Positions 741-46,764 of a DNA stretch of 64,000 bases are shown piece by piece. A program made the translations under genes and the position numbers. The DNA comes from Tetmemena sp. SeJ-2015. Lineage: Eukaryota > Ciliophora > Spirotrichea > Sporadotrichida > Oxytrichidae. Every line of letters begins with the position of its first letter. The stretch's first letter is position 1. The stretch is from NCBI GenBank assembly GCA_027382625.1, contig JAJKFJ010020792.1:1-64000 (forward strand), read 5' to 3'. The notes beneath the pieces were generated by a model. It was not told the DNA's origin. It made no database searches and was given only the letters and a program-made list of their open reading frames with translations.

Positions 741-1540
741 AATTTAATTTCATTTTTAGCTCTATACACTGCAAGTTACAAAGGAAGCAGCTCATTACAA
801 ATGATGAATCCCACTTTGAGCGTTGCAAAACATTAATCTTCTCCACCATATCTTTAAAATACTAATCCAGTCTATGCAAATCAGATTGGCTATAACGTAA
901 ATACAAACAAAAATAATTCATCTAATCATACCGTCTCATAAAACTCAATCAACTAATCCCAAGGTAGCTAAACAAATTTTATTTTTTCAACAATTTTTCA
1001 TAGATCCATAAAATTTACAATATAGTAGGAATTTTAATTATAATAGATAATTGGTTAAAATAATTGGAGAGTTGCAATTTCGTGTCAGTTGAAATAAAAG
1101 ATTCCCCCCCCAGATCTGTAGCTTGTTCGATAGTTTATCAAAAATTAATATGATTTTCTTCCTGAATCATCTTCTCAGCATCTCTTAGCAGCGAGATATG
1201 TCGCGCACTCTTCATCCTCTTCATCATAATCTTTATTAAAACTTGTGTCGCTTATAACTCTTGACTGAGAGTTCCCACACAAAAGTTACAAGGATAAAAC
1301 GTTCCTCGAATTTCATGCTGAACTGAATGGTCTAATAATTATTCAAATTTGACACACTTCAGCTTCCATTGATTTATTCCATTTTCATTTAATAATTAAT
1401 TCTCTTTTTTATTAAATTCTCAACTATAATGGGTACAACAATAGCACTGAAGCAAAATTTTTAGGACTTTAATCATCTTCATAAAATTAACCAACTAGAA
1501 TAAACATCATTCAAATACTTCATTTACTTTCATTTTAATC
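741..1540. other. AT-rich spacer, no gene recognised
   Basis: No frame here shows family motifs or a convincing start. The DNA is AT-rich but not the homopolymer noise seen just upstream. It is probably intergenic germline DNA and the 5' flank of the ubiquitin hydrolase gene. Confidence 0.4.
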
Positions 1541-5499: not shown

Positions 5500-7650
5500 T
5501 TTTTCATTTTGCTTTGAAAAAATGAGTTCATATTGAGGATATTTTCTCTCCTCATTCTCATCTCCTCTTTCCTTTTCTAGTTTTTTTCTTTCTCTTTTCT
5601 GGATTCACATGCCTATCATTTTTTCTGATTAAGCCTTCCTAATTTATTTGATTCTGCTGAATCCTTACGAACTCTCTGAAATATGCTTGCTGCAAATAGC
5701 ATTTCTTGCAAATGTCCGGCAGAGGATGACTTTCAACATGCTCATTAGGAGGAGGGATTTAAGTTTGGAGTAGTAATTTATTCAAGTCCTAATCCTTTTT
5801 CTTATATCCTTTGCATTTCATCTGATTTTACAGCGAGTATGCTGAATCTTTCCTTTATTTTTGGGGTTAGTTGTAAAAAATGGATATGTTTTGAGGGGCT
5901 TCTGAAGCCGCAATTTGTTCTTATTGAGCCTATCTTGAGACAATAGATCCCATCTCTAGAAACCTAGCCACAGCCTATGATATTGGCATAAACTATTTGC
6001 AAATTTTGCATTCAAGATTGAAAGCCAACTTCTGAGAATCAAACTCAATATTTTAGAAAAGTTATAGGATTGTTTATTTATTAGAAAGTTTAAATGTAGG
6101 ACACTAGATGTGACACCTAAGTCAGATTGGCTGGGGTTGGGAGATTAGCCGGCAATTCCTCAATGCCCCTGCTACGTTGCGTTTATCCCTTGGAGGCGTA
6201 TAGTTTAAAAAATTGAGGAAAGTAAAGTGACGTTTCTAATAGAAAGATTTGTGAATTGTGGCCAAACCCTAAGCGTGCAAGACTGCACTTAGTCCCAAGT
6301 CTCACCCTTTCCTAGTGAAGGAGTTATGGGATTCTAACAAGGAGCAAAGGTTGCAGTAGAAATCCTAAAGATAACTCGGAGAGTTAGGTGCCAGATTATG
6401 TTGCAGTTTGTAGACGCAGCCTATAAAGGTTTGCATATGAGGCCTAACCACGGGCATATGCATTGCTCAGGCTAGTATAAGGTCATTGCCTAACACCAAA
6501 TAATCGACAATTTATAAGCGTTGCATTTTATCCTTTAAGCTCTGTCTAGCAAATTCCGTATTCGAGGTTTATTGCGCTAAGTTAGACCGGCAGATTGAGA
6601 TGTACTCAGAGTGAGAGTAGATGAGAGAATCAGACGTCAAATAAAACAGGGAATCTCTCTCTCCCAAATGAGAGCTGTGTGTCATCTCTGATTACCTGAC
6701 GACAAGGGTTGACACATCTTTATAGACCGGCCACCTATTATGATCATATTTATTTATGCCCCCCAAGGGTTGCTCCTTAATTCCTTATATGATAGTTTAA
6801 AATTTTCTTGAGGGTTTATTGGTATTTTTGAAAAAGATCCTCAGGATTCGCAATATCCTATTGAATTTCATCATCATATAAGTCACACTTAAAAATATTT
6901 TGAATAAAAATTTAAGTCAGCATTTTCTTCTTGCTTCATCATTCGCTTAAATTTCCTTTTAGAGATTGCGAGCAAGTTTTTCTCTTCGTCAAGCTTTTCA
7001 AAACCTAATAGGTTGCCTATTTACAATTTATACGATCTTATATTGAGAAGATTATAATTCTAAATTGTATTTTAGACTTTTTTGTCAATCCTTTTCCTTT
7101 CTTATAGCTAAGCCAAATCTAATACTTATTCAGGCACTTCTCACATCGCTTTGGCATAGAAAATCCTAGTTTTTAAATAATCTATACTTTTTGGCCAGAC
7201 AAATACACTTTCTTCTCACACTAAATGCAAAACATATAAGTACCTAAATGCAAATGAAGGCATAGCCGTAATCATCTTTAAGGCTTAAGACTCCACTTTG
7301 CTCTTCTTCATCATTAAAATTTAAAGCATTTTTATATAATTGCGTCCCAAAAAGCTTTTTTCCTCCTCTTGAATCATTTGATAAGTTTTTGTCTCCTCCT
7401 AAATTCTCTCTTCGAACTCTTGGACAAGTAAAATACTTTGCTCAAGCTCAGAAGTTTGGAAACTTATATCTTTAACTTTCAGAGCATTCATACTCTGATC
7501 ATAGTCTTAAGGATCTTAGCTGAACTAAGAGCTTATATTCTAAAATTTAGATTCCTCAATTAGCTCACTAATCCCTATCACTTCAAAGCTTTCTCTCTCT
7601 TAAAATGGATGAGAAAAAGAATTTCTGTTGCTCTTATTTTAGGATTCCAT
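5500..7650 (-). CDS. Family X zinc-ribbon protein, copy 1 (interrupted)
   Basis: Starts at ATG 7650-7648 (MESQNKSNRNSFSHPF). Order of parts: an acidic helical N-terminus; then a treble-clef or zinc-ribbon-like module CIQCEKKVYLSGQK...GFSMPKRCEKC, reassembled across an IES at 7221-7254; a basic stretch KRKFKRMMKQEE; a second pair CKICKQFMPISQ; and a C-terminal CKKCYLQQAYFREF followed by charged helix. The CxxC...PKRCxxC pattern resembles small zinc-ribbon domains of unknown function. No enzymatic motif is visible. The copy is split by a foreign-looking insert at about 6090-6775. Where copy 2 has its TGA stop (8587), this copy has TAA, so its 3' end is uncertain. It could still be germline-limited or expressed after rearrangement; I cannot tell. 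Confidence 0.6.
6090..6775. other. Insert of different base composition inside X copy 1
   Basis: Copy 2 of the same gene is continuous here (about 9165-9190), whereas copy 1 carries roughly 680 extra bases clearly richer in G and C than its surroundings. I find no long TGA-free frame with recognisable motifs. Weak GATGTG similarity occurs near both ends, but no convincing terminal inverted repeat. It could be a decayed element, a non-coding RNA gene or a captured macronuclear-destined fragment. Confidence 0.5.
7221..7254 (-). other. IES in X copy 1, pointer CTAAATGCAAA
   Basis: An 11-bp repeat at 7221-7231 and 7244-7254 (23 bp removed). Removal joins YAFICIQ directly to CEKKVYL, completing the first zinc CxxC. 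Copies 2 and 3 have IESs at the same codon. Confidence 0.85.
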
Positions 7651-8586: not shown

Positions 8587-10047
8587 TCACTTATTCTATG
8601 GTTATATTTTGTTCATTTTGTTTTCCTGATCCTCCAGGAGTTCCTTGAGATGCATCTCTCTCCTTTTTCTAATTTCCTCGAGTCTTTGCAAGTTTTGTTC
8701 TCTCTCTTCCAGGCTCACATGGCGATCAATGTTTCTGTTTAAGCCAGCCTAGTTTATCTTATTCTGCTGAATCATTCCGAACTCTCTCAAGTATGCTTGC
8801 TGCAAATAGCATTTCTTGCAAGTGTCCGGCAGAGGCGCACTTCCCACAGGCTCGATAGGAAGAGGGATTTAATTTTGAACTTTTAGTTTATTCGAGGCCT
8901 GCTTCTTAGAACCTTTACCTTTCTTCTGCTTAGGAATATGGTAAGTTGAATCCTTCTTTTGTTTTTGAGGTTATTGATAATAAAAAGAGATGTTTTATGG
9001 GGCCTCAGTAGCTGCAATTTGATCTTGCAACTGAGGCTACCCTGGGCCAGCAGACTCCATTTCTAGAAATTTGGCAATTGCTTAAGATATAGGCATGAGC
9101 TAGTGGCAAATTTTGCACTCAAGAGAGAAAGCTAATTCCTGAGGTTCAAGCGCAATATTTTAGAAAATTAAGATCAATAAATGATTTAAAACTTTCTTGA
9201 GGGTTTCTGGTCCTTTTGATTTAACATCCTAAGGATTCTCAATATCCTCTTGAATTTCATCGTCGTTCTAGTCACACTTAATAAATGAATTTGATCTAAA
9301 ATAAAGTCAGCATTCACCTCTTGCTGCTTCATCATTCGCTTAAATTTCCTTTTAGAAAGTGCAAGCAACTTATCCTCTTCTTCTAGTTAGTCAAAGTCTT
9401 CTAGGTCGTCTATATATAATACATTCAATTTAATTGGAGTATGTTAAATAAGTCTACTTCAGCCTCTTACAAAATCCCTTTTCTCTCCATGTAACGAAGC
9501 CATCTCTAATACTTATTTAAGCACTTCTCGCAACGTTTGGGCATCGCAAATCCAAGTTTTTAAATGAACTTTACTTTCTGACCGGACAAATAAACTTTCT
9601 TTTCGCATTGGATGCACAATTAATTTTTAAAGTATATCTATATTATGCAAATGAAGGCATAGCTGTAATCTACTTTGAGGTTTTAGACTCCACTTTTCTT
9701 TTCTTTATCATTAAAAATTGAAACCTCATTTATAATTAATTGTGCACTGTCCTTTTTTCCTCCTCTTGAATCATTTAATAAGTTTTGGTCTCCTCCTAAA
9801 TTCTCTTTTCAAACTCTTGGTTAAGTATAATGCTTTATTCCAGCTTAGAAGTTTGAGGACTAACTTCTCCAACTTTCTGATATCTCAAGCTCTTTTCATA
9901 TTCTAGAGAGCCTGAGTTCAGTTAAGAATTTATAACTTGGAACTTCTATTCCTCAATTAGATCACTACTTTCAATCACGTCAAAGCCTTCTTCATCGTCT
10001 CTAGGTTGAGAAAGCTTATTTCTGTTGCTTTTATCTAAGGATTCCAT
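8587..10047 (-). CDS. Family X zinc-ribbon protein, copy 2 (best preserved)
   Basis: Starts at the ATG complementary to 10045-10047 and ends at TGA 8589-8587. It contains the first zinc module CIQCEKKVYLSGQK with GFAMPKRCEKCLNKYQRW (restored by the 9612-9649 IES), the basic segment LALSKRKFKRMMKQQE (about 9370), the second pair CKICHQLMPISQAIAKFLEM (about 9110), a Lys/Gln/Ser-rich linker, and the third pair TCKKCYLQQAYLREF with a charged C-terminal helix ending near KMNKIQPQNK. Function is unknown; three separate CxxC pairs suggest zinc-dependent nucleic-acid or protein binding. It diverges from Y copy 2 with about 260 bp between starts, so the two could share a promoter. Frame shifts near 9200-9400 imply further IESs that I did not fix. 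Confidence 0.7.
9612..9649 (-). other. IES in X copy 2, pointer ATGCA
   Basis: ATGCA at 9612-9616 and 9645-9649 (33 bp removed). Removal gives YAFICIQCEKKVYLSGQ, the same join as in copy 1. Confidence 0.88.
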
Positions 10048-10304: not shown

Positions 10305-13300
10305 ATGGGAAACCTCTGCACTAAAAAAACTTATTCAGCTGCTGCTATTACTTCTAAAAATACTACTGCTGCTACTACTTCTAATAAAAAATGGATGTCT
10401 CATTATTCTGATGAACAATTTATAGACTTATTAGCACTTTAATTCATCTAAATCTTTAATTATAACGGGGAATTTATTTGTTAAAGTAATTTTCAGTAAT
10501 TCAAATTGGATTAGATGTACATCTGGGATCTTTGAAAATCTGGCAAATATATAATAGCAAACCTAAGTTCACATTCGTTCAGATTTATAATATGGAATAA
10601 GTAAAAAGAACTTAAAAAAGAAACTCAAAGCTAAAAATTATTTTAAGTCGAAACTAAACAGTTAACAACAAAAGACAATAATGAGAAATTTTCTTTCTTG
10701 ATTTAAATTGTTACTACACTCTCTTTTTATTTTATACAATTAGTCATTTCTATATAAATCACACATATAACAATGCGAGTACTTGTTAAAGCATTGAAGC
10801 TTGAAGGGTTTTAGAGGAACTTAAATTCCAAGCGAAGATGATTACATTCAGAACTATGATAATTTTTTGAAAGGCACTCCATTACTTGAGTATGATCGGA
10901 AATATTAAATTTTCTTCTCCTCTAAAACTAAAAATAAATAGGTTTTAAAAAAATATATTTAACTATTCATTTCAATATTTTTATTACCTCTTCTGAACCA
11001 TTTGAGTTTTTCCTCACACTAGATTATTTTAAGAATTGATTTAATATTTATTTCTTTTATTTGCAGATGTCAATGACTTTAAGGAAGACCCTCAGCTCAA
11101 ATTTAAGATAAAGAGATATTATCTGTTCTGCCTCGATTTTTCACTACTGGTTAGAAAGCCAGATTTTATAATATATAGCCACAGTTTTTAGTATTTTACT
11201 GATTTTAGAGAAGTAGCTTAAAAATCATCCATAATTGGAATGTTGGTCAAGAAAGTTCCCTATAATTGTGGGACTTAATAAAGTACAATTACCTTTTTTT
11301 CTCAATTTTTTTCCTGCAATACTCGGATGACAAGAAGCGCTTACAGTCCCAAGTTTTAATACGGATGAAAAGAATTTCGTCCTCGTTCGTCCAGGCCTTA
11401 CAAAAGGAGCAAACTCAAAATTTTTTGAAAAATCGGGGCTGAACGTAGAATATTGCATGTATAAAAAATTATAAAATTAATTTTGCCATTTAAATGTTTT
11501 CAAAATACTATGTGGAGTAGAAGCAACACAATGTGCAATATATTGAAGCGAAATTTCATAAAATATAAACATGTATAAATATAAGTTTAAAAAATCATGT
11601 GTAATTCAATAATTTAAAATCAGTTAGTTGATATTGAAAATATTAATTCTAATTTGCAAGCAAATTCTTTAAGAATTTAATAACTATGGACTTATTATAA
11701 AGCTGCATATTAATCAATGAATTAATTATAAAAAGCTTATTATTCAATTTATTATAAAATCTCTTTCATAAAAATGAAATTATAATTAACTTTCAATAAA
11801 GTCTAGTTAAAATTAATTTCGAATTAATATAATGCAAAATTATTATATTCATAAAATAATTCCTTTATAAATACATAATTTATGATGCCAATAAAGAGAT
11901 ATTTGACTAAGACTATCAATGAATTTTAGCTTCTTTTCATATATGCATTTTATAAATTTCTATCAATAATTAAAGCTATTTTCTTGTTTATTTTCTTTTA
12001 AATAATCTATGCAGAGTTCATTGAAGCTTACGAAGAATTCCTTCCCTAATTAAAGATTATAAATATAAATTAAAATTCTCAGAGAAGTATAACCAAGACA
12101 TCTAAAAATTAATTAATTCCTGATATTAATTAATAAAAATGAAGAAAATTCAAATTCATAAAGTTGATAATATTGTAGTCCCTTAATTAGTTCAGCTTCT
12201 TATCCCAAAATCTAAATGGAGGAGATTTTAATTTCAAACTAAGCAGGTGAACGTTAGAAATTTCAAGAGAGAAGGAATCTATTGAAAGGATCAAGAGACA
12301 CAGAGCTCATGATTTAGAGAACACTACATGAAAAAATAAGGAAAAAGAAAAAAGGCCAGAGAAAGAAGTTATTATTCGTAATATACAAAAATTTTACATT
12401 TTAAAACTAAATATAAGAAAATTTGCAATATTAATTCAGAATAATTAATATAAGTATAATTTTTGCAATGATTATTAGAAATAGGTAAATAAAATTTGAT
12501 AATGAGGCCTGATAATAAATTGTTATGGTGAAGTGAATTGTTAAATTTTTAGTGCTTGCTCTTCTTTCAAAAATAAATATTATTGTTAATTAATCTCAAA
12601 ATAGAATGAGAGTCATTAAAAATTCCTTATCACTTATTGCTTCTCTGAGTTTTTTTTATTTTTTTCCCAAAATAATGTTAGGATAATGGGAACTTAAATT
12701 TTAAGATTATATTTAAAGCTTGATAGATTTTCTATTTAATAAATTTGTGAAATTAATCATATTTTAAAAGCACGGAGAAAGGATTTACTTAATTTTAACT
12801 AATATATTCCATTATTTAATTGGAAAAAAATATATATCTTGCTAATGTTGTTAACGAGGATAAATTTTAAAGTTGACAGATTTCACGTTTAAAGGAATCC
12901 CTCTTTTTTGCCCCAGCTTCTATAGATTTTTATTTTCTAGAGGAACTTGATTTGCTAAAGCTAAGAGTCATCAAATTCTATGCTAAGCATTACAACATGA
13001 AAGAAATCATGAGCTCATAATTTAAGCACTCTTCTCTCAACAAATTTTTAGGATCACAGTCAGAGTTTCATTTATTCACTTTATGAATAGAAAATATCTT
13101 ATAGTTTACAACTATGGTTCATCATTCAGCGGCAGCACAAGCTTAATAAATATGTTTAAAATTTGAAGCTTATTAAACGATGTTCTACTTTATAGACGAA
13201 TTGGGATTTGATAAACCATTTTACTGAAAGTTTAATTAATTTTGAATGATGATTTAATTTATTGATTTCTACAGGGAAGGAAATAGGATAACAATTCTGC

Positions 13301-15375: not shown

Positions 15376-18300
15376 ATGGGAAACTTTTGCACTAAAAAAA
15401 CTTCTTCAGCTGCTATTACTACTACAAAAACTATTACCGCTACCTCTTCTAATAAAAAATAGCAGTCTCATTATTCTGATGAACAATTTATAGATTTATT
15501 AGCACTTTAATTCATCTAAATTATTATAACGGGGAATTTATTTGTTAAAGTAATTTATATTAAGTAATTCAGATTGGATCAAGTGTACATCTGGGAATCT
15601 TTAAAATCTGGCATATATATTATAGCAAACCTAAATTCACATTCTTTCAGATTTATAATTAGGAATAAGTAAAAAGAACTTAAAAAGAAACTCAAAGTAA
15701 AAATTTATTTTATAGTCAAACTAAACAGTTAACAACAAAAGACAATAATGAGAAATTTTTTAACTGCAGTTAAATTTTTACTTCACTCTCTTTTTATTTT
15801 ATACAATTAGTCATTTTTATATAAATCACACATATAACAATTCTAGTACATGCAAAAGCATGGAAGCTTGAAGGGTTTTAGAGGAACTAAAATTCTAAAC
15901 GAAGGTGATCATTATCACATTAGGAACTTTGCTAATTTTGTGAGAGACTCTCCTGGAATAGATTATAGTCGGAAATATAAAATTTTCTTCTCCTCTTAAA
16001 TTTAAAAATAACTAACTTTAAAAATGTCAAAACTACATTAATATCAATATTTTTATTTCCTCTACTGAACCATTTGATTTTTTCCTCATACTAGATTATT
16101 TTAAGCATTTATTTTTTTTCCTTCTATAATTTGGAAATATCAAAGACTTTTAGGCAGACCCTTAACTCAAATTTAAGATAAAGAGATATGGCATTAATTA
16201 CAAATGATAAGTGAATTATATTGATTTAAATGTTTTGACAATACTATGAAGAGGAGAAGTGACACAATGAAACAGATTTTGTTTAATATCTTGAAAAGCA
16301 ATTTCATAAAATATTAAATTAGGAGAATTGTAAGTTTAAAAAATCAAGTGTAATTCAATAATTTAAAATAGTTAGTTTTTTTAAAAAAAATATAAATTCT
16401 AATTTTTCAGCAAATTCTTGATAATTTAATAACTATGGATTTATTATATAATGATTCAGATTACTTAATGAGTTAATTATAAAAAGATTAATATTCAGTT
16501 TATTATCAATTCTCTTTCCTAAAAATGAAATTATATTTAACTTTCAATAAATTTTTATATAGTTAAATTAATTTCAAATTAATTTAAAAAATTATTATAC
16601 TTCATAAAACAATTCCTTCTAAAAATAATTAATTTATGATGCCATTAAAGAGATATTTAACTGAGACTATCAATGAATTTAAGCTTCTTTTCATGTATGC
16701 ATAATATATATTTAATGCGCTATTTTCTAATTCATTTTATTTTATATATAATATATTTTAAATGCTGAGTTCATTGAAGCTTATGAAGAGTTCCTTCCCT
16801 AATTAAATATTAAGAAAATAGAATTACAATTACAAAATCAACAATTAAAATCATTTAGGACTCCACATTTCAAGTTTTTTTTATTGTCTGTTGCTGAAGA
16901 GAGGTCTAGTTTCTTATTGTAGTTTATTAAATGAGTGGCAGTTTGAAATTGAAGATATATCTGTAAATCAATTATATAATATGGCTTAGCGAACTCTGGA
17001 GAATTATAATATCTGAGATCTAGAAAAGTTTTTCGATAAGTTTGAAATTAGAAATGATTCATTAAAAGTTTGACATTAAAATTAGGTAAAAACATGTGAG
17101 TTGAAGTAAAACTCATTCTGATGTAGTAAAACTCATCTCTAAATTTTGAAACTATCCAATCAAAGACTTAATAATTAAAAATTATTAAGCAAAGCAGAGT
17201 CTCTGATTGGATAGTTTCAAAATTTAGAGATGGAGTTTTACTACATCAGAATGGAGTTTTACTTCAACTGACATGTTTTTACCTAATTTTAATGTCAAAC
17301 TTTTAATGAATCATTTCTAATTTCAAACTTATCGAAAAACTTTTCTAGATCTCAGATATTATAATTCTCCAGAGTTCGCTAAGCCATTTTATATAATTGA
17401 TTTACAGATATATCTTCAATTTCAAACTGCCACTCATTTAATAAACTACAATAAGAAACTAGACCTCTCTTCAGCAACAGACAATAAAAAAAACTTGAAA
17501 TGTGGAGTCCTAAATGATTTTAATTGTTGATTTTGTAATTGTAATTCTATTTTCTTAATATTATAAATATAAATTAAAATTCTCAGAGAAGTATAACCAA
17601 GACATCTAAAAATTAGATTTTTAAATTAATTTAGAAAAATGGAGAAATTTCTTTTATAAAATGTTTATTTAAGTATTCATTTTACCACTATTTTATTTGA
17701 CAACAAATTAAAATTTAATTACAAGCTATAAAAATAATTGAGGCAGATATCTCTATAATGATGCAGCGTCAATTATAACTGGCTTGCTTTAAATTATAAT
17801 TTTTTCTCTTCTTAAATTATCACAAGTAACTTTAATATAAAGATGTATTATATGGCAACTACAATATTTCAAAATGCTCATTATCTTTTCTTGAATTTTT
17901 GAAAAAACTGTGGCAAAATTTTTTCAAGGTTTTGGGTCAGTTAAAATTTAATATTTTATCCTTTAATAAAAATATAGAGACAATTGCCTTCCTACTGACT
18001 TATTTATTTTCTAAATTTGTCCATCTAATTATAGCTGATTATTAAATAAATAATAGAATTAAATTAGATATTAAATTAATATGGATTAAAATCGTGATTG
18101 CTGAAGTATCTCAGATTTGAATAATTATTAGACCATTCGAGAGAGCATTAAATTCTAAGAACTTTTTATCCTTGTAACTTTTGTGTGGGACTGTAAAGAG
18201 TTATAAGCGACACAAGTTTTGAATAGTTTGAAGATGAAGAAGAAGAATAAGAATTCGCGAAGCGCTACTGAAAGGTGCTTAAGAGATGATTTAAGAAGAG

Positions 18301-19368
18301 ACTCATATTGATTTTTTTATTAGCAATAGAACAAACTGCTTATTAGGGGTGAATTAATCATTTCAACTGTCACAAAGTCGCTGCTCCTTTTTATTATTTT
18401 AACCAATCACCGATTTGAATTTAATTCTCAACTATAACGAGGTTTCTTCTGCCTTAATAAAAAATTTAATTAACTATATAAAAAATTTAAATCTAGCTAA
18501 TGCTGTTATCGAAGATCAATTATAGCTTAGATAGGTATAGTTTTTTAAAGGATTCCTCTACGGTACCGCCGCTTCTATATGTTTTTTATTTTCTTGAGGA
18601 ACTTGATTTGCTAAAGCTTAGAGTGATCAATTCTACGCGAAGTACTACAACATGAAGGAAATAATGCAATCTAATTTAATATACTCCAATCATTACAACT
18701 TTAAAGGACTATCGTCAATGTTTCATTTATTAATTTTAAGGAAGAATTTTAATATTTTTAGTTTACAACTATAGTTCATTATTCTGCAAAAGCCTCGGCT
18801 TAATAAAATATGAATTTTATCTTGAAAATTATGCAAATGAAGCTTATCAAACGATGTTCTACTTTATAGACGAATTGGGTTTTGATAAACCATATTCAGC
18901 AAAGTTTAATTAATTTGATGTATAGATTTAATTTATTGATTTCTACAGGGAAGGAAATAAGCTTACGCTTTTGCACATTATCGCAAAACATGCTTGCCAG
19001 AGGAAATTTTGCGATTACGACAAAAAATACATTAGACTCTTGATATCAAATTGTTTTTTTTTTATTAATTCTATTACTGAGTTTAAAATTTTAGATATCA
19101 AGATCAAAGAATTTGTTCCAGAAGACTGACTTAGGCTAAACTATTCTGTAGCTTGCTATATATTGGAATTTAAAACACATTATGTGTTTTTTTTAATTAG
19201 TTAATTATGAATTTAGAGGTTAATACTAAATTCTTGAAGGAAGAGATAAATAGAGTGATTGAGATAAAAATAAGATAAATGCTTTTCTTAGTTGGAAAGA
19301 AATTGCATAAAAAGAGTGCTAAAACCAACCCTTACATACTAAGAGAAATATTCAAATACATAGAGTGA
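15376..19368 (+). pseudogene. Family Y, copy 3 (interrupted by a fold-back element)
   Basis: Starts MGNFCTKKTSSAAITTTK (ATG 15376) and carries the same block series as copy 2: HGSLKGFRGTKILNEGDHYH (about 15860), ADPQLKFKIKRY (about 16150), EFIEAYEEFLPQ (about 16770), FLEELDLLKL (about 18595), FYFIDELGFDKPY (about 18860), REGNKLTLLHIIAKH (about 18950), and a C-terminus ending FKYIE (TGA 19366-19368). In the block equivalent to YYEEEKRYNGHD, a TGA replaces a sense codon (GAG AAG TGA CAC). The 753-bp fold-back element lies between the EFLPQ block and the next one, in a part that is non-coding in copy 2, so it need not disrupt the protein if it is eliminated. Confidence 0.6.
16808..17560. mobile_element. 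Fold-back element: about 360-bp near-perfect inverted arms
   Basis: TATTAAGAAAATAGAATTAC... at 16808 is mirrored by ...GTAATTCTATTTTCTTAATA ending at 17560. The arms match almost base for base over about 360 bp, with a few substitutions and indels (for example around 17098 and 17260), around a roughly 30-bp AT-rich centre. The flanks (AATTAAA left, TATAAATATAAATT right) are contiguous in Y copy 2 at about 12045-12070, so this is an insertion into unit 3. TA lies on both sides, consistent with a TA target duplication and TTAAG termini. No coding frame was recognised in the arms. A transcript would form a long duplex. Confidence 0.85.
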
Positions 19369-19689: not shown

Positions 19690-20565
19690 AACTACTCACT
19701 ATTAAATCCTCTGTATCGATAGCTTAATCATGCATCAAGTGATAGAGCAGCAGCTTCTTATAGTGTCCCTTAACTAAGTTCCAGATAAAACTCAATGCCG
19801 TTGAACTCTGGCGAGTATGGAACATTAAAAACAGGAGTGATGTTCAACTCAGCGTATGCCTTCTTCGCTTCCTTTGTCTTGTGTACGCTGAGGTTGTCAA
19901 CGAGTAGAACGATCTCACCGTCTGTGATCTCTCTCTGTGCTTCTTAAGGAACGCAGCATACTGCTCTCGCTTGATAGAGCGAGGATGAAAGGACATAAGC
20001 TTCTAAGCCTGAGTCTTCGCTGATTCCTGCAAGTAACGCACTTGTAGTTATATTTACTTTCTACTCGTAAACTTCTATGTTATCGTGCTTCTTGTACCAA
20101 CTCTTCTTCATGAAGGTGTTGTGTGTGAACACAGCTTCGTCAGCACATACAAACTTCACGCTATCCCTCTCACACCTGAGCAGCTAGTCGTAAATATATT
20201 TCAGATTATTATAATAAAATGGCTTAGTGAAGTCTATAACGCGCTTCACTCGATTCACAGTTTTGTAGTTATGCCATTTCAACGATAGATGTTTGCTACA
20301 GTCTACGGAGAGATCTTGAGATAAGGAAACTATCTATGGAAGATCTTCGCGCGCTACTCCAAACTGAAGTGCGCTTAGTGGCGAAGAGTTTGAGGATCAA
20401 TCAAATAATTGATGTGCACATCTTGAAACTTAGAAGTGCGATGAGGAACAGCTGCAACTCTAACTTTCTCATCTGCAAAGCAACTTTCAAATGCGAGAGT
20501 ATAGTGCGCGCTGGCACTCTCAACATTTTTGCGATGGAGTTGATGTTGAGAACTGGCTATTACTA
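19690..20565 (-). pseudogene. Tc1/mariner-IS630-type DDE transposase relic
   Basis: On the minus strand, pieces of a DDE transposase appear in order. A helix-turn-helix-like NINSIAKMLRVPARTILSH lies near 20540-20470. The first catalytic region CADEAVFTHNT...KKSWYKK is near 20150-20090. The second Asp is in LLVDNLSVHKTKEAKKAY near 19915-19865. The terminal Glu is in NVPYSPEFNGIEF near 19835-19795, followed by WNLVKGHYKKLLLYHLMHD. The pieces lie in different frames, with at least two indels (near 19945 and 19795), so the gene is broken as it stands. Arrangement and motifs fit the IS630/Tc1/mariner superfamily, which includes the TBE transposases of hypotrichs. Its codons are richer in G and C than the neighbouring X/Y sequence. 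No terminal repeats were found. Confidence 0.8.
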
Positions 20566-41546: not shown

Positions 41547-44500
41547 ATGGATTTAAACTAGCTATCAACTGGCACCTTTGGCCAGAATAATCATGCCTCC
41601 AGCTTCAATCAGCCTTATTTGAGTGAATATTTTTAATACTTTTAGCCTGGTGGTACTCAGGTTCCAAGTCAGCGAGAACTGATGCTGAAGAAACTTTTAG
41701 AATCTCAAGAGAGCTACATCCAAGAACTCGAGTCAAAGAACAAGCAACTCAAAGATCAAATAAGCGAACTCTCCCAGAGTGGAGCAGCAGAGAGACTAGA
41801 AAAAGAAAGAGCAGACGCAAAAGGTCGAAGGACCCAGCTGCTAACTTAGTTTTAAATTACTTACTCTAATATAGGACTATGATATTCAATTTAAATTAGG
41901 GATTGACTTTCAGCTGATGGAGAGGCCTGAGATAGCTTCAGTGGACAAGATCAGCCATCTGCACTCTGCTTTGCAATCTTTTTCACCATTTCTTTGCCAA
42001 GCCCTTTCCTAGCTGAGAGTCTAACTAACTTTGGAGTTACAGCTGCTTAAAGAGTAGATGAAGTACAAAGACACACTCAGCAACCATGGAACTCAGCTGT
42101 TTAAAAAGGAGAGACAAGATATGCAAGAGGAGCTTGATGCTCTCGAATAGCAATATAGACAATAGATTTCTTCTCTGTAGAGTGAATTAAGAATAATGAA
42201 GAGTCTTCAGCTATCAGAGAGGCAAGGCTTAAACGGAATGAAGTAGAGTCAGGGACAAGATATAGCAAGCCAAAGAGTGGCTGAAGAAGTAGAGCAACTG
42301 GTTTCTAGTCACAAAAGAAGTGAGGAGTAGATGGCCAAGGAGATTTAGATTTTGAGACTTAAACTTGACAAGGCTTTCAATTAACTTGAGGACTAAATTG
42401 CTTAGAATGAGACGCAGAAAGCCAGATATGAAAGACTCATGCTTGAAAAGGAATCAACTCACTAACTTCAAACCACCCAACTCCAAAAGCTTCTTAAGGA
42501 CACTATCAAGGAGTTACAGAGAACCAAGCAGGATATCATAATTTATAGAAGTTTAGTTTAAGTTTAAATTATCAATGGTGATAACGAGTTTGCTCAATCC
42601 GTCTCGGGACTTAATTTGGCCAATCAAACTCAACTTATTTAGGCCATTGGTAAAGAAAACTCATAACTCAGAGTGAGCCAAAATCTTTTCCAAGACTAAT
42701 CTAAGAATTTGAATTAGAAATTGCATGATGAAACTGACTTGGCAGTGAGCTTAATATCTTATGTCGATTAATCTTTTAACTTCTTATATTAAAGCTAGCA
42801 GCAGCAAGCCTTATCTGCTTCTCAGAGAGGGGCTTCGAAATAAGAAGATCAGTTTGCATAATCATAGTACCAGACAAAAGCTGGTGGCAACAATGAAAGC
42901 ATCTCGAGCATCTTTGACCCAGCAAAGTTCTTGAAGCAACAGATTGAGCACCTCTAGCAAGAAAGTGACCATTGGAGAGACTGCGTTGCCAAGATGGGAG
43001 AGAAGTTCCAAAATCAGAAAGACATCTATGAGGAGAGGCTTAAAGTAGTCAACTTAGAGCGAAAGAATATGCAAGACCAACTTAAACAAGCAGTTAGTTT
43101 TATTTGATAGAGTTAAGGCTGCTGGTGACAGGGAGTAGATGCTAGAGAAGGAGTTGGAAATTTTAAGGGAGAGCAATTCTAAGCTAATGGGCTTTGGAGA
43201 GCAAAGAGAGAAGACTCTACAAGAGGAGTTGCAATTGATAAAGTCTGAACTCAAGAACATTCAGACCGTGATGGCACAGAGGGAGCTCTAATATTTAAGG
43301 GAAAGAGAAGTTCTCTAGAAAGAACTCACTGAGTACTAAGTATTATCATTTTAAAGATTATTTAAGTATGAATGTAATATGTAGAAGTATTGGTGGACTA
43401 GATTCATCTGCAGATTGAAAACCAGAGAGTACAAGCTTCGAGTGGTAAGCAAATGGGAGAATTAGAAATCATGTAAAACTTAATCTCTAATCTGCAGCGG
43501 CAAGTCAGTGACGCCAATGACCTTCTCGCAAAGAACGGCCTCAGTAACCTTTAAATTTAAGCAGTTTTATAATTTGCAAACTATTAACTCTAAGAGTGTA
43601 AAAGAGCTCTTTATGTCAAAGTTAGACTAGCATATGATAGACTAAAAGCAGCGCTTTGAAGATTAACTCGTCAATGTTAAGTTAATTCTGCAGTAGTAAA
43701 GGGAGCATTTCGAATTCCTTTCTCATGAGAAGGACCACTCTGAATCAATCCATGCTCATAAACTAGATTCCCTCTAGTTACTTAGATGCAGTAACTCATT
43801 AGCGATGTCTAAAATGGAAAGGGTAAATACCAGCCAAAGCCTATGCCTTAGAATTCTGCTAATGCTTCACTTAACTCCTAAAGAAGTGGATAAGGCAAAT
43901 TTAATAAAGCAACATCCACCAAGCCACAATAAAATTAGTATGAGGTTATTGTGTGATTATTTGGAATAGAATGCAGCTGAGTACTACTAAGCTGAGTGTG
44001 AATCCATGTGGGATCATATGCAACTGTTAGAAGCAGAGAAAAAGGCTGCTCTGCAGAATCCACAGCCAATAAATAGTCTTATTACATAGATTTTTAGAAT
44101 GTTGAGAGTGTCAGTGCTTATGTAAATGTGCTTCTGAGATAACAATAAGACCAGCAAGTAAAGTTTGCGGAGTCATTTGATATGCATTAAAAAGCTGTCC
44201 AGACACTATAGCACCTCATTTCAAACTAATTTATGGAATTTGAGGCTCTTCGACTCACAGAACTAAAAGCTCTCATAATAAGGAATTAATTTGTGTTTGA
44301 AGCTTTTGAAGAATCTTATAACTAGCACTTGCTTATGATGTCAAGAGATTCGTCTCAGAAGAGCTTTGGCCCAAAGAAACAGACAAATATTAATTATAAG
44401 CATTTATATATGAAGCCTTATTTTAAATCCTAACTAGAGCAACTCACTGAGTTAAAGTAAGTTTTGTTTATTTTTGAGTGTGGGCTCTCAAAATAACAGT

Positions 44501-46764
44501 GGCAGTTCTCAGCCTCAGCAACACCCTCAGTATCAGAACTGGACAAGGGAAAGGCAGCTGCTTTTTGAAGAGATATCTCTGTTGCGAAACCAAGTAGAAC
44601 TCTTCAACAAGAGCTACTCCCAGATTATGAATATCAGGCAGCAAGAACTCTCTCTACTCCAAAATGAGAGAGGTCAAATGCTAATCATTAATAATCAATA
44701 TGTATGTGAAATATATGTGAAATACTCTATTTTATATTAAGATAATGTTATTGATTTCACAAAATTTAAAAATAAATTAACTTTTAACGGAAGGTAGTTT
44801 AGATACTATTATATCCGAGAAACTATTGGAGATATCTCATTAAAGTTGTTGTTTTATAACAACTGCCAGCTGGAATATTGTATTTCATCACTCGTTCTTG
44901 TCGCTTCCTTCACCTTCTTATGCGTGTTCATTTAAACCTTCTATATTTTCATAAACCAATTTATTTCTTAGCTTCATCCTAACTCTATTCTGATTTTCTC
45001 CTTTCCTCCTCATTCAGTCCCCTCCATCGCACCTAATGGAGGCAGCAAGCCTGGAGGGTAGTTGAGTGGAATCTGTTGAGATTGAATTTTCTGCATGTTC
45101 CACGCATCGGAACTAATCCTGCTCCTTCTCCGGGAGTCAGATGGATTTTTATGGGACATCTCTGGAAATGGTATCTATTAAAATGGCTTTAATTCCAATA
45201 TTTCTTTATCCAAGTAACTGTTACTCTAGACCCATAAGAAGACAATTGCCCAAATAATGATTAGTAATATCCAAAGGTTATTAGGCATACTTCTACTGTC
45301 CACAACTATTTCTCTAGCTCAGATATTCATCAAGGCAATGGAATCATTATAATGTTTGGCTACAAAACCAATCAGGAATTCTTGCCAATTGAGTGTTATT
45401 ATAATTATTATGGTATCTAGATAGTTCACTTTGATAAAAATGGAGTCCAATTCTGGGGTCTGTCTGCACTTGACTTTACTCCACAAAGTTCTTAATCGAT
45501 CGATAGCTAATCGGTCCAAAATAAACAGGAATCTATCATTGATAAGATTGCTTCTGTGTTGTCACTGAATGAAAAGGGTTTGGGAGATATTCCAGGAACT
45601 AAAATTTATATATTGAATTAAAAGAGATTCGCAAATATGACCTTGGTATCAGTCTCCAGTCGCAGCTGTGAGTTGTAATAAAACAATAACTTTAATGAGA
45701 TATCTCCAATCGTCTCCCGGATATAGTATTTAAACTACCTTCCGTTAAAGTTAATTTATTTTAAAATTTTGCGAAATCAATAGCATTATCTTAATACCAT
45801 CTAGGATTAACTGAAGGAATCCCTGACTGAATATGATAGACTAGACCGGAGTTTGAAACAGATGGCTTCAAGAAAGGAGGAGCTACTCCTAGTCAATGAA
45901 AGTGAAGCAGTAAAGGATTTGCAGCTGCAGAATAGTTATCTTCAAGCTAAGATTAGTGAGTTGGGTCGACTACAGTAAGATGAGCTTGTGCAGTTGACTC
46001 TTAATTTTGAAACCAAGGTACTGGAACTTAAAGAGAAAGAAGCCTCTAAGGATTTCATTATAAGCAAGCTCTAAAGAGAATTGGAGGTAGCTCAAAGTGA
46101 CTATCAGATCTACACTCTAAGAAATGATCATGAGAAAATTAATTGCATTTCTTAATGGATTTATTTAATGATCAGACTGTGTCTTTGATGAGGCAAGAGA
46201 TTGAGCGGCTGAGGAAGTTTGCCAACGTGAGATAGCAGGAAACTTAGGTAGAGAGGCAAAAAGCAGTAGCTAAATAAAGAAGATGAAAGATGCTATAAAA
46301 GAAAAGGACAAAGAAGTATCGCAAGTTAAGTAGGACAAGTATTCTCGCTATCTCAAGCTTCTCAACAATGCATTAAATGTAAGTGTAACTTATATGAGAT
46401 TAAATATCCATCAGGATTATCTAATAGTGGAATTTCCTAGTAAAATCAATAACAACTTGAAATTACAAACTCTGAAAGTCAGATACTACAAAAGTAAAAC
46501 AAAAGCTATGGCCTCAACAAAAATCAATCTTTAACTTCAAACAAAAAATTATTTTTTGTGTTAAATTAATCTTAGATTTCACAATCTCAATAATTCGGCA
46601 ATTAAAGTCAGCGAGCTCTATATGGCTAAAACGGTTCAAGTTAGTAGCTATTTGCAAATGCAAACAGTTCTTAACATTTGAACTTAAACAATCCCTCCTC
46701 GTAAAGCCAGCTCTTTAACTAAAATTCAACACTAAGTCTCGGAGGAAAAAAGTTTAATCTATGA
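41547..46764 (+). CDS. Long coiled-coil protein (uncharacterised), split by IESs and a TIR element
   Basis: ATG 41547, MDLNQLSTGTFGQNNHASSF. From about 41690 to 46330 the translation is almost continuous Glu/Gln/Lys/Leu heptad sequence (for example LESQESYIQELESKNKQLKD, LQQEYR-type repeats and LERKNMQDQLKQAV), interrupted by Gln/Ser-rich linkers. The end is Asn/Gln/Ser-rich (NSSQHLNLNNPSSQSQLFNQ) at TGA 46762-46764. No motor, kinase or membrane motif is visible. Such proteins in ciliates often belong to the basal body or cortical skeleton, but that is inference. Interruptions are the 19-bp IES at 43092-43115, the 1.06-kb TIR element at 44735-45796, and several unplaced IESs (41850-41900, 43340-43380, 44090-44110, 44400-44475, 46140-46160, 46370-46440). 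The joined product would be about 1400 residues or more. Confidence 0.72.
43092..43115 (+). other. 19-bp IES in the coiled-coil gene, pointer AGTTA
   Basis: AGTTA at 43092-43096 and 43111-43115, with 19 bp removed. Without removal the frame hits TGA; with it the coiled coil reads LKQAVKAAGDREQMLEKE. Confidence 0.9.
44735..45796. mobile_element. 1.06-kb terminal-inverted-repeat element inside the coiled-coil gene
   Basis: The left end (from TATTAAGATAATGTTATTG, 44735) and right end (complement of ...AATAGCATTATCTTAATA, to 45796) are inverted copies of about 130 bp with several differences. TAACGGAAGGTAGTTTA and GGAGATATCTCATTAAAGTT are shared exactly. TA flanks both ends. Coiled-coil coding DNA lies on each side, so the whole element must be removed with the DNA-rearrangement machinery for that gene to work. 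No transposase motif is present, so it is a non-autonomous element or element-derived IES. It encloses the small gene described below. Confidence 0.85.
45010..45288 (-). CDS. Small predicted membrane protein encoded inside the TIR element
   Basis: ATG 45288-45286 to TGA 45012-45010, 92 residues. It starts MPNNLWILLIIIWAIVFLWV, a strong single membrane-spanning segment. A polar region follows with a helix (DKEILELKPF), an arginine cluster (PSDSRRRSRISSDAW) and a Pro/Leu-rich end (PLNYPPGLLPPLGAMEGTE). A hydrophobic N-terminus with a basic Ser/Arg stretch is consistent with a tail-facing membrane peptide. No family is recognised. The composition is protein-like and the frame has a clean start and stop. 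However, a plus-strand frame over 45205-45685 (MFGYKTNQEFLPIECYYNYY and onward) is also open and partly overlaps, so coding status needs care. It is probably a germline-limited gene carried by the element. Confidence 0.55.

Follow-up and report, generated by a model that had tools for sequence, protein, structure and literature searches.

A Pack-TIR-like transposon in Tetmemena may carry host-gene sequence captured in spacer-free form

Sequence comparison suggests that a Pack-TIR-like transposon of the ciliate Tetmemena sp. SeJ-2015 captured host genes in a spacer-free, perhaps macronuclear, form, a reading to which we give a probability of slightly under one half (about 0.48). The germline of ciliates is riddled with interruptions and their soma is edited; it is this edited condition that two elements of one transposon family appear to share. 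The first lies in the window, i.e., the whole stretch of 64,000 nucleotides of contig C1872 that was analyzed, and holds a joined copy of a gene that is split elsewhere in the genome. The second, on contig C2853, holds most of an ABC transporter gene.

Results

The window element is 1,062 bp long and is bounded by terminal inverted repeats (TIRs) that are 89% identical and match each other at E 8e-43, far above chance. A sequence-only reading of this DNA had proposed TIRs of about 130 bp around a 1.06-kb insertion in an otherwise coding region; the repeats are present with their outer ends as claimed, and the flanks are coding to the left and to the right.

44735-44872, plus strand: left TIR, 138 bp, tip TATTAAGATAATG
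45663-45796, minus strand: right TIR, 134 bp, tip CTTAATA, last base 45796
45543-45796, unstranded: right subterminal region plus TIR, 86% identical to C2580:6670-6917

The search for related elements that this reading had called for was run at the DNA level against the genome to which the window belongs (146 Mb in 5,213 contigs) and returned a TIR family. It gave at least 66 matches, many of them TIR ends, and 12 two-ended elements, that of the window included, were recognized among the fetched loci. Both tips of the window element are TA, as are those of 10 of the 12; L021 and the element on C2738 have one other tip each. Because a duplicated TA and a tip TA are indistinguishable without an empty site, the TSD expected of a Pack-TIR is read here from TA at the tips. 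Family members range from 490 to 4,581 bp (11 measured) and include four copies of about 1,047 bp that are 95.0-98.8% identical in different flanks, two copies of about 1,180 bp (98.6% identical), and a 3-kb type with further copies that carry internal deletions. No transposase domain was present in the three element frames scanned with Pfam. On C2580 the same TIR occurs (a second TIR was not found there), and 1.2-1.7 kb inward of its tip lies a DDE transposase frame that is degraded and 38.5% identical to the transposase of the window (E 5e-8). The pairing suggests, without proving, a Tc1/mariner-like origin, and the window element is probably a non-autonomous, Tc1/mariner-like TIR transposon with TA as target. 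The TBE elements of hypotrichs have C4A4 telomere-like ends; the tips of the window element, TATTAAGATAATG, differ from these and speak against membership in that group.

The DNA on both sides of the element is coding once TAA and TAG are read as Q. In an exon-intron structure search over positions 41750-46500, the permitted intron lengths were 30-109 and 1000-1249 bp, a choice that admitted a long intron, and the best structure encloses the element in a predicted intron.

41750-46500, plus strand: host coiled-coil gene, TAA/TAG read as Q, short introns (limits are those set for the search, not gene ends)
44702-45804, plus strand: putative host intron holding the element, GTATGT...CATCTAG, 1103 bp, or 43 bp minus the element and one TA

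The other predicted introns of the host gene measure 73, 107, 43, 89, 32, and 89 bp, some of them doubtful; the adjoining one (44457-44499, 43 bp) has the size of the element-holding intron when empty. The element thus reads as occupying a 43-bp intron of the coiled-coil gene. The sequence-only reading had proposed that the host gene could function only once the element was excised. Given its place in a putative intron, splicing alone would keep the host frame, so that excision during development would not be strictly needed. Apart from the window's own contig, the assembly yielded none that matches the host flanks, and neither an empty site nor a macronuclear copy of the host region.

Between the TIRs lies sequence with relatives elsewhere in the genome.

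44874-45108, coding strand undecided: cargo part 1, which matches both C4761 and the 1.5-kb tandem array of C2193 at 73-88% identity
45109-45500, plus strand: cargo part 2, a joined copy of a gene split at C2479, C4677, C2658, C915, C1852, and C1562
45109-45193, 45188-45330, 45323-45355, 45348-45374, 45370-45423, 45420-45445, and 45449-45500: pieces of cargo part 2

The matches of cargo part 1 point to a source other than that of part 2. The array on C2193 (L026, C2193:155000-164500) consists of about six tandem units of approximately 1,545 bp near the contig end and has 147 bp in common with cargo part 1.

In the six contigs that match cargo part 2, the gene DNA is split into short pieces lying up to more than 1 kb apart, and the spacers between them are AT-rich and mostly pointer-flanked. 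Seven pieces (A, B, B2, B3, C, D, and E, counting two micro-pieces of 33 and 27 bp) tile the copy in the element, where they are joined in order, with each junction found once and no spacers; a length difference near 45147-45150 introduces one frame shift. Pieces A to D occur in order in L009, in the near-identical L010, and in L011. Piece E was placed in L009 and L010 at only 71% identity, which puts all seven pieces in order there, and the corresponding stretch of L009 (6855-7011) aligns to L013 at 86%. L009 and L010 thus hold seven pieces, L011 six, L013 five (A, B3, C, D, and E; pieces B and B2 were not found in it), L014 four (B3 to E), and L012 three (A, B, and B2), the last two loci both ending at contig ends. 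C2479 and C4677, at 98.4% identity, could represent a single locus. In 200 control stretches the lowest family identity was never reached, whichever piece was compared. The 74% of piece B3 in L009/L010 only equals the best of 50 shuffles, and its assignment therefore rests on order and on 78-81% identity in L011, L013, and L014.

Pointer-like repeats mark four clear junctions (TTTAAT, with TTGAAT on the other side, AGATA, AATCA, and GATA); the repeat at the B2/B3 junction is unclear, and none was found between pieces D and E. As the spacers at the four clear junctions are without GT...AG ends, they look like IESs rather than introns. In all, at least five AT-rich, IES-like spacers split the other copies of this gene, four of them with clear pointer-like repeats. 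Protein searches with the plus-strand cargo frame and with a diverged family of the gene gave nothing at E <= 0.01; for the family, a 300-aa stretch of the protein encoded on C3615 and C2046 was compared with 5.8 billion proteins.

The sequence-only reading had assigned a different gene to the insert, i.e., a membrane-protein frame on the minus strand.

45010-45288, minus strand: 92-codon frame, running antisense to cargo part 2 and through an open stretch of part 1

This clean frame exists, with ATG and stop, within an open stretch at 45010-45318, but its length is expected by chance. When TGA alone counts as a stop, 641 of 1000 dinucleotide shuffles of the element contain an ATG frame of at least 92 codons on the minus strand, and 962 of 1000 contain one on either strand. 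Conservation at the protein level lies on the plus strand: the frame at 45055-45675 is 31-35% identical in amino acids to the diverged family on C3615, C2384, C2046, and C3750 (E 5e-14 to 2e-9), whereas the minus frame gave nothing better than E 3.5 against the same four loci. The membrane stretch corresponds to a conserved plus-strand piece read in antisense, and what the minus frame matches elsewhere in the genome is these same pieces of DNA together with cargo part 1. Its one match in Pfam, Ycf4, is weak (E 6e-4, 19.8 bits; curated cut-off 34.7) and is taken to reflect membrane-like composition. By these comparisons the frame is largely the antisense of a plus-strand gene. The proposal of an element that sits inside a gene and itself carries a gene thus holds for a TIR element with gene cargo in a coding region; for the minus-strand frame as that cargo it is not supported.

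On C2853, the 4,581-bp element contains, on its minus strand, the greater part of an ABC-C type transporter gene, with Pfam matches to ABC_tran (1.5e-24 and 4.7e-11) and ABC_membrane (5e-13). The gene lies in several frames, and the frame changes may be introns or damage. A protein search with the ABC frame found six relatives, and a DNA search found one other locus, C3470, which lies near a contig end and covers 1.08 of the 4.3 kb at 90-91% identity. This match consists of three blocks separated by spacers of 1.66 and 1.60 kb, both of which are absent from the transposon copy over the compared 1.1 kb. In element coordinates, adjoining blocks share 8 and 6 bp, and the two copies of each overlap repeat in C3470 agree at 6/8 and 5/6 bases. 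A 37-bp putative intron (L020 2401-2437, GTAAAA...TATAG on the coding strand) joins two frames and lies in an ungapped alignment of both copies. Because it is kept in the element and in C3470, the ABC copy would have been made from DNA and not from spliced RNA, which speaks against an RNA-derived processed pseudogene in its case. The outgroup ABC gene on C3113 (59% identity in its best stretch) has no kb-sized spacer in the same domain. The flanks of the ABC element have 24% GC, and a near-identical piece of the window transposase lies beside it at the start of C2853 (L020:3-171). Elements of the L016, L018, and L042 types were also considered as split-gene captures and rejected: the searches returned element copies or relatives and one tandem relative, and no split host gene was found as a source for any of these three types (L019 lay outside the searches).

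The window itself has several features of germline DNA. A repeat of about 400 bp from the spacers of C1562, C2046, C2384, and C3750 recurs at window positions 1011-1428 and 18030-18436; it was found neither in 20 kb of the IES-free contig C3615 nor in the 32-64 kb block of the window that contains the element. The 22 kb between 10 and 32 kb are AT-rich, mostly non-coding by codon score, and include a DDE_3 (IS630/Tc1-type) transposase frame on the minus strand (19731-20396; Pfam E 1e-13). From the spacer repeats at two places and from this AT-rich, non-coding, transposase-bearing block, we infer that the window is germline DNA. Four genes of the window (1.5-3.2, 41.8-46.5, about 52-55, and 60.3-61.3 kb) showed no IES, only short introns. 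C3615, a 24-kb contig without IESs, is either the counterpart of C2046 or closely related to it, with 95-99% identity in the best blocks and 75-93% in others, and the block overlaps between the two are pointer-like, with 5 to 13 bp (L029/L037/L038 versus L031/L039-L041). As these contigs correspond, the assembly seems to mix IES-free and IES-bearing forms. A telomere pattern search of the contigs gave 43 matches, compared with 61 for the reversed control.

Discussion

The structure of the window element is consistent with the following course of events. A non-autonomous TIR transposon would have entered a coiled-coil gene at a TA within a 43-bp intron; the inside of the transposon would have been replaced, as in a Pack-TIR, by pieces of host genes, the main one being a plus-strand fragment of about 390 bp from a multi-copy gene. 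A break or failed excision within the transposon may have left a gap that was filled by copying an IES-free DNA template. Macronuclear DNA is a plausible template because the intron was kept while the IESs were lost.

Timing bears on whether the template was edited or the relatives gained their IESs afterwards. Between the L009/L011 and the L012/L013/L014 lineages the spacers differ by 21-35% and the pieces by 7-12%. A copy drifting freely since the L009 group split is expected to retain about 77-86% identity (uncorrected distances); as the 83-85% seen falls within this range, capture need not predate the common spacers. Window-private changes by codon position (7/10/15) reject neither free drift nor mild constraint, and the divergence argument fails if the copy was constrained for a time.

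An ordinary Pack-TIR with nothing somatic about it would result if capture took place from germline DNA that did not yet have the IESs, and the L009 group and C3470 gained theirs later. We regard this as a serious contender, though not a probable one. IES gain at a pointer and precise IES removal leave an identical trace, the outgroup ABC gene on C3113 is without the spacers, and the diverged C2046 family has no IESs through most of the homologous stretch. However, at least seven spacers (at least five in the window case and two in the ABC case) must then be younger than the captures, and the element has diverged by 15-17%, no more than free drift since a time when the spacers were already common. 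Copying of an edited template therefore stands slightly ahead of later IES gain. Were C1872 and C2853 macronuclear contigs, the absence of IESs from the cargo would be trivial, and the soma would simply have kept the transposon. That IES-free contigs occur in the assembly is shown by C3615, and the examined window genes with short introns only and the 32-64 kb block without the spacer repeat would fit; the mostly non-coding AT-rich 10-32 kb with its transposase, the spacer repeat at two places in the window, and the position of the ABC element in 24% GC flanks next to a transposase piece make such an origin quite unlikely.

A further alternative concerns the site only and is compatible with all other readings: the element could be a pointer-flanked IES of the host gene and not an intron passenger. 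TTAATA occurs at 44688-44693 and at 45791-45796, and removal between the two copies (1,103 bp) restores the host frame equally well. The intron has consensus-like ends and, empty, the 43 bp of its neighbor, and family members elsewhere sit at TA, for which reasons we think a pointer-flanked IES unlikely, if not markedly so. Far less credible is the minus-strand membrane-protein gene of the sequence-only reading, carried as cargo and expressed from the germline nucleus or before excision. The frame has its ATG and stop, there is the sub-threshold Ycf4 match, and a chimeric new frame is possible on sequence alone; yet frames of such length are usual in shuffles, protein homology to the diverged family is confined to the plus strand, and the genomic matches of the frame are those of the underlying DNA pieces.

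The preferred reading, capture of spacer-free host-gene DNA by a TIR transposon, finds its closest parallels in animal Pack-TIRs and plant Pack-TYPE/Pack-MULE elements, which likewise keep TIRs and TSD around host sequence in the accounts given of them (PMC8277862; PMC8903248). In both the window and the ABC case, host-gene sequence with relatives elsewhere lies between the TIRs. According to the portion of PMC8277862 that treats single-copy Pack-TIRs in animals, these are explained mainly by gap filling with microhomology; unlike in the Pack-TIRs and Pack-MULEs, the host genes here have an IES-interrupted form and the captured copies are without the interruptions. The MITIES/BogoMITE of Blepharisma are also non-autonomous TIR elements of a ciliate germline and, in the part of PMC9942856 devoted to them, include many TA-bound IESs in genes as well as nested insertions. 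The same account derives the Blepharisma MITEs from a transposon by deletion and describes them as generally short and free of coding sequence, whereas the inside of the window element is host-gene sequence. Mobile IESs of Paramecium resemble the window element as transposon-derived sequence in germline genes, most of it without coding potential; the passages of PMC8354472 on these IESs do not mention captured host genes, and the site of the window element reads as an intron. Nesting of gene sequence in the germline locus of another gene is shared with the Russian-doll genes of Oxytricha, whose inner locus is, in the relevant part of PMC5940158, the precursor of a somatic chromosome; the window cargo, by contrast, is a frame-shifted fragment of about 390 bp and not an intact inner gene, and it is framed by transposon ends. 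Transcribed germline-limited ORFs of Oxytricha are another instance of coding sequence in germline-limited DNA, as portrayed in sections of PMC8495736, but the cargo frame of the window element is broken. Among the papers listed in the literature searches, no report of host-gene capture by TIR elements of a ciliate appeared, which says no more than that.

In its widest form, the proposal is a soma-to-germline flow, in which germline transposons fill with macronuclear DNA that is already edited, free of IESs but with introns, or with a macronuclear-derived template. We advance this only tentatively and would not call it probable. If it is true, DNA-edited gene copies would be heritable and would spread as transposon cargo. 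Uptake of edited DNA by transposons would open a route for somatic DNA to become heritable; interrupted genes could shed every IES at once, and IES-free gene copies would have a natural source. Whether IESs are present or absent is, moreover, a readable tag for Pack-TIR capture that can tell the template genome, and this tag is missing in organisms without an edited soma.

Additional observations

Several smaller features of the window and of the TIR family were recorded. Weaker copies of spacer repeats occur at window positions 6309-6784 and 11119-11440. An inverted repeat at 16806-17562 has arms of 309 nt that are 99% complementary and lie 139 nt apart. Two similar direct copies of a gene-like stretch, at 5680-5830 and 8770-8900, have the peptide MLAANSISCKCPAE in common. 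The related TIR element on C2738 (L036:1881 to L046:2041) contains a second transposon of 3.45 kb with inverted ends ATTAGTAAAAATCGTAAGAATTTGGAGGG; because this insertion has inverted ends of its own, it is read as a nested transposon and was rejected as an IES. L015 at about 66 and L023 at about 2825 have a common motif beginning CCCCAAAACCCCATAATAT, which we take to resemble telomere-bearing transposon ends. Finally, 80 bp at L047:548-627 (C1990:26047-26126) are identical to the inside of the 3-kb element L042, and the similarity ends on both sides.
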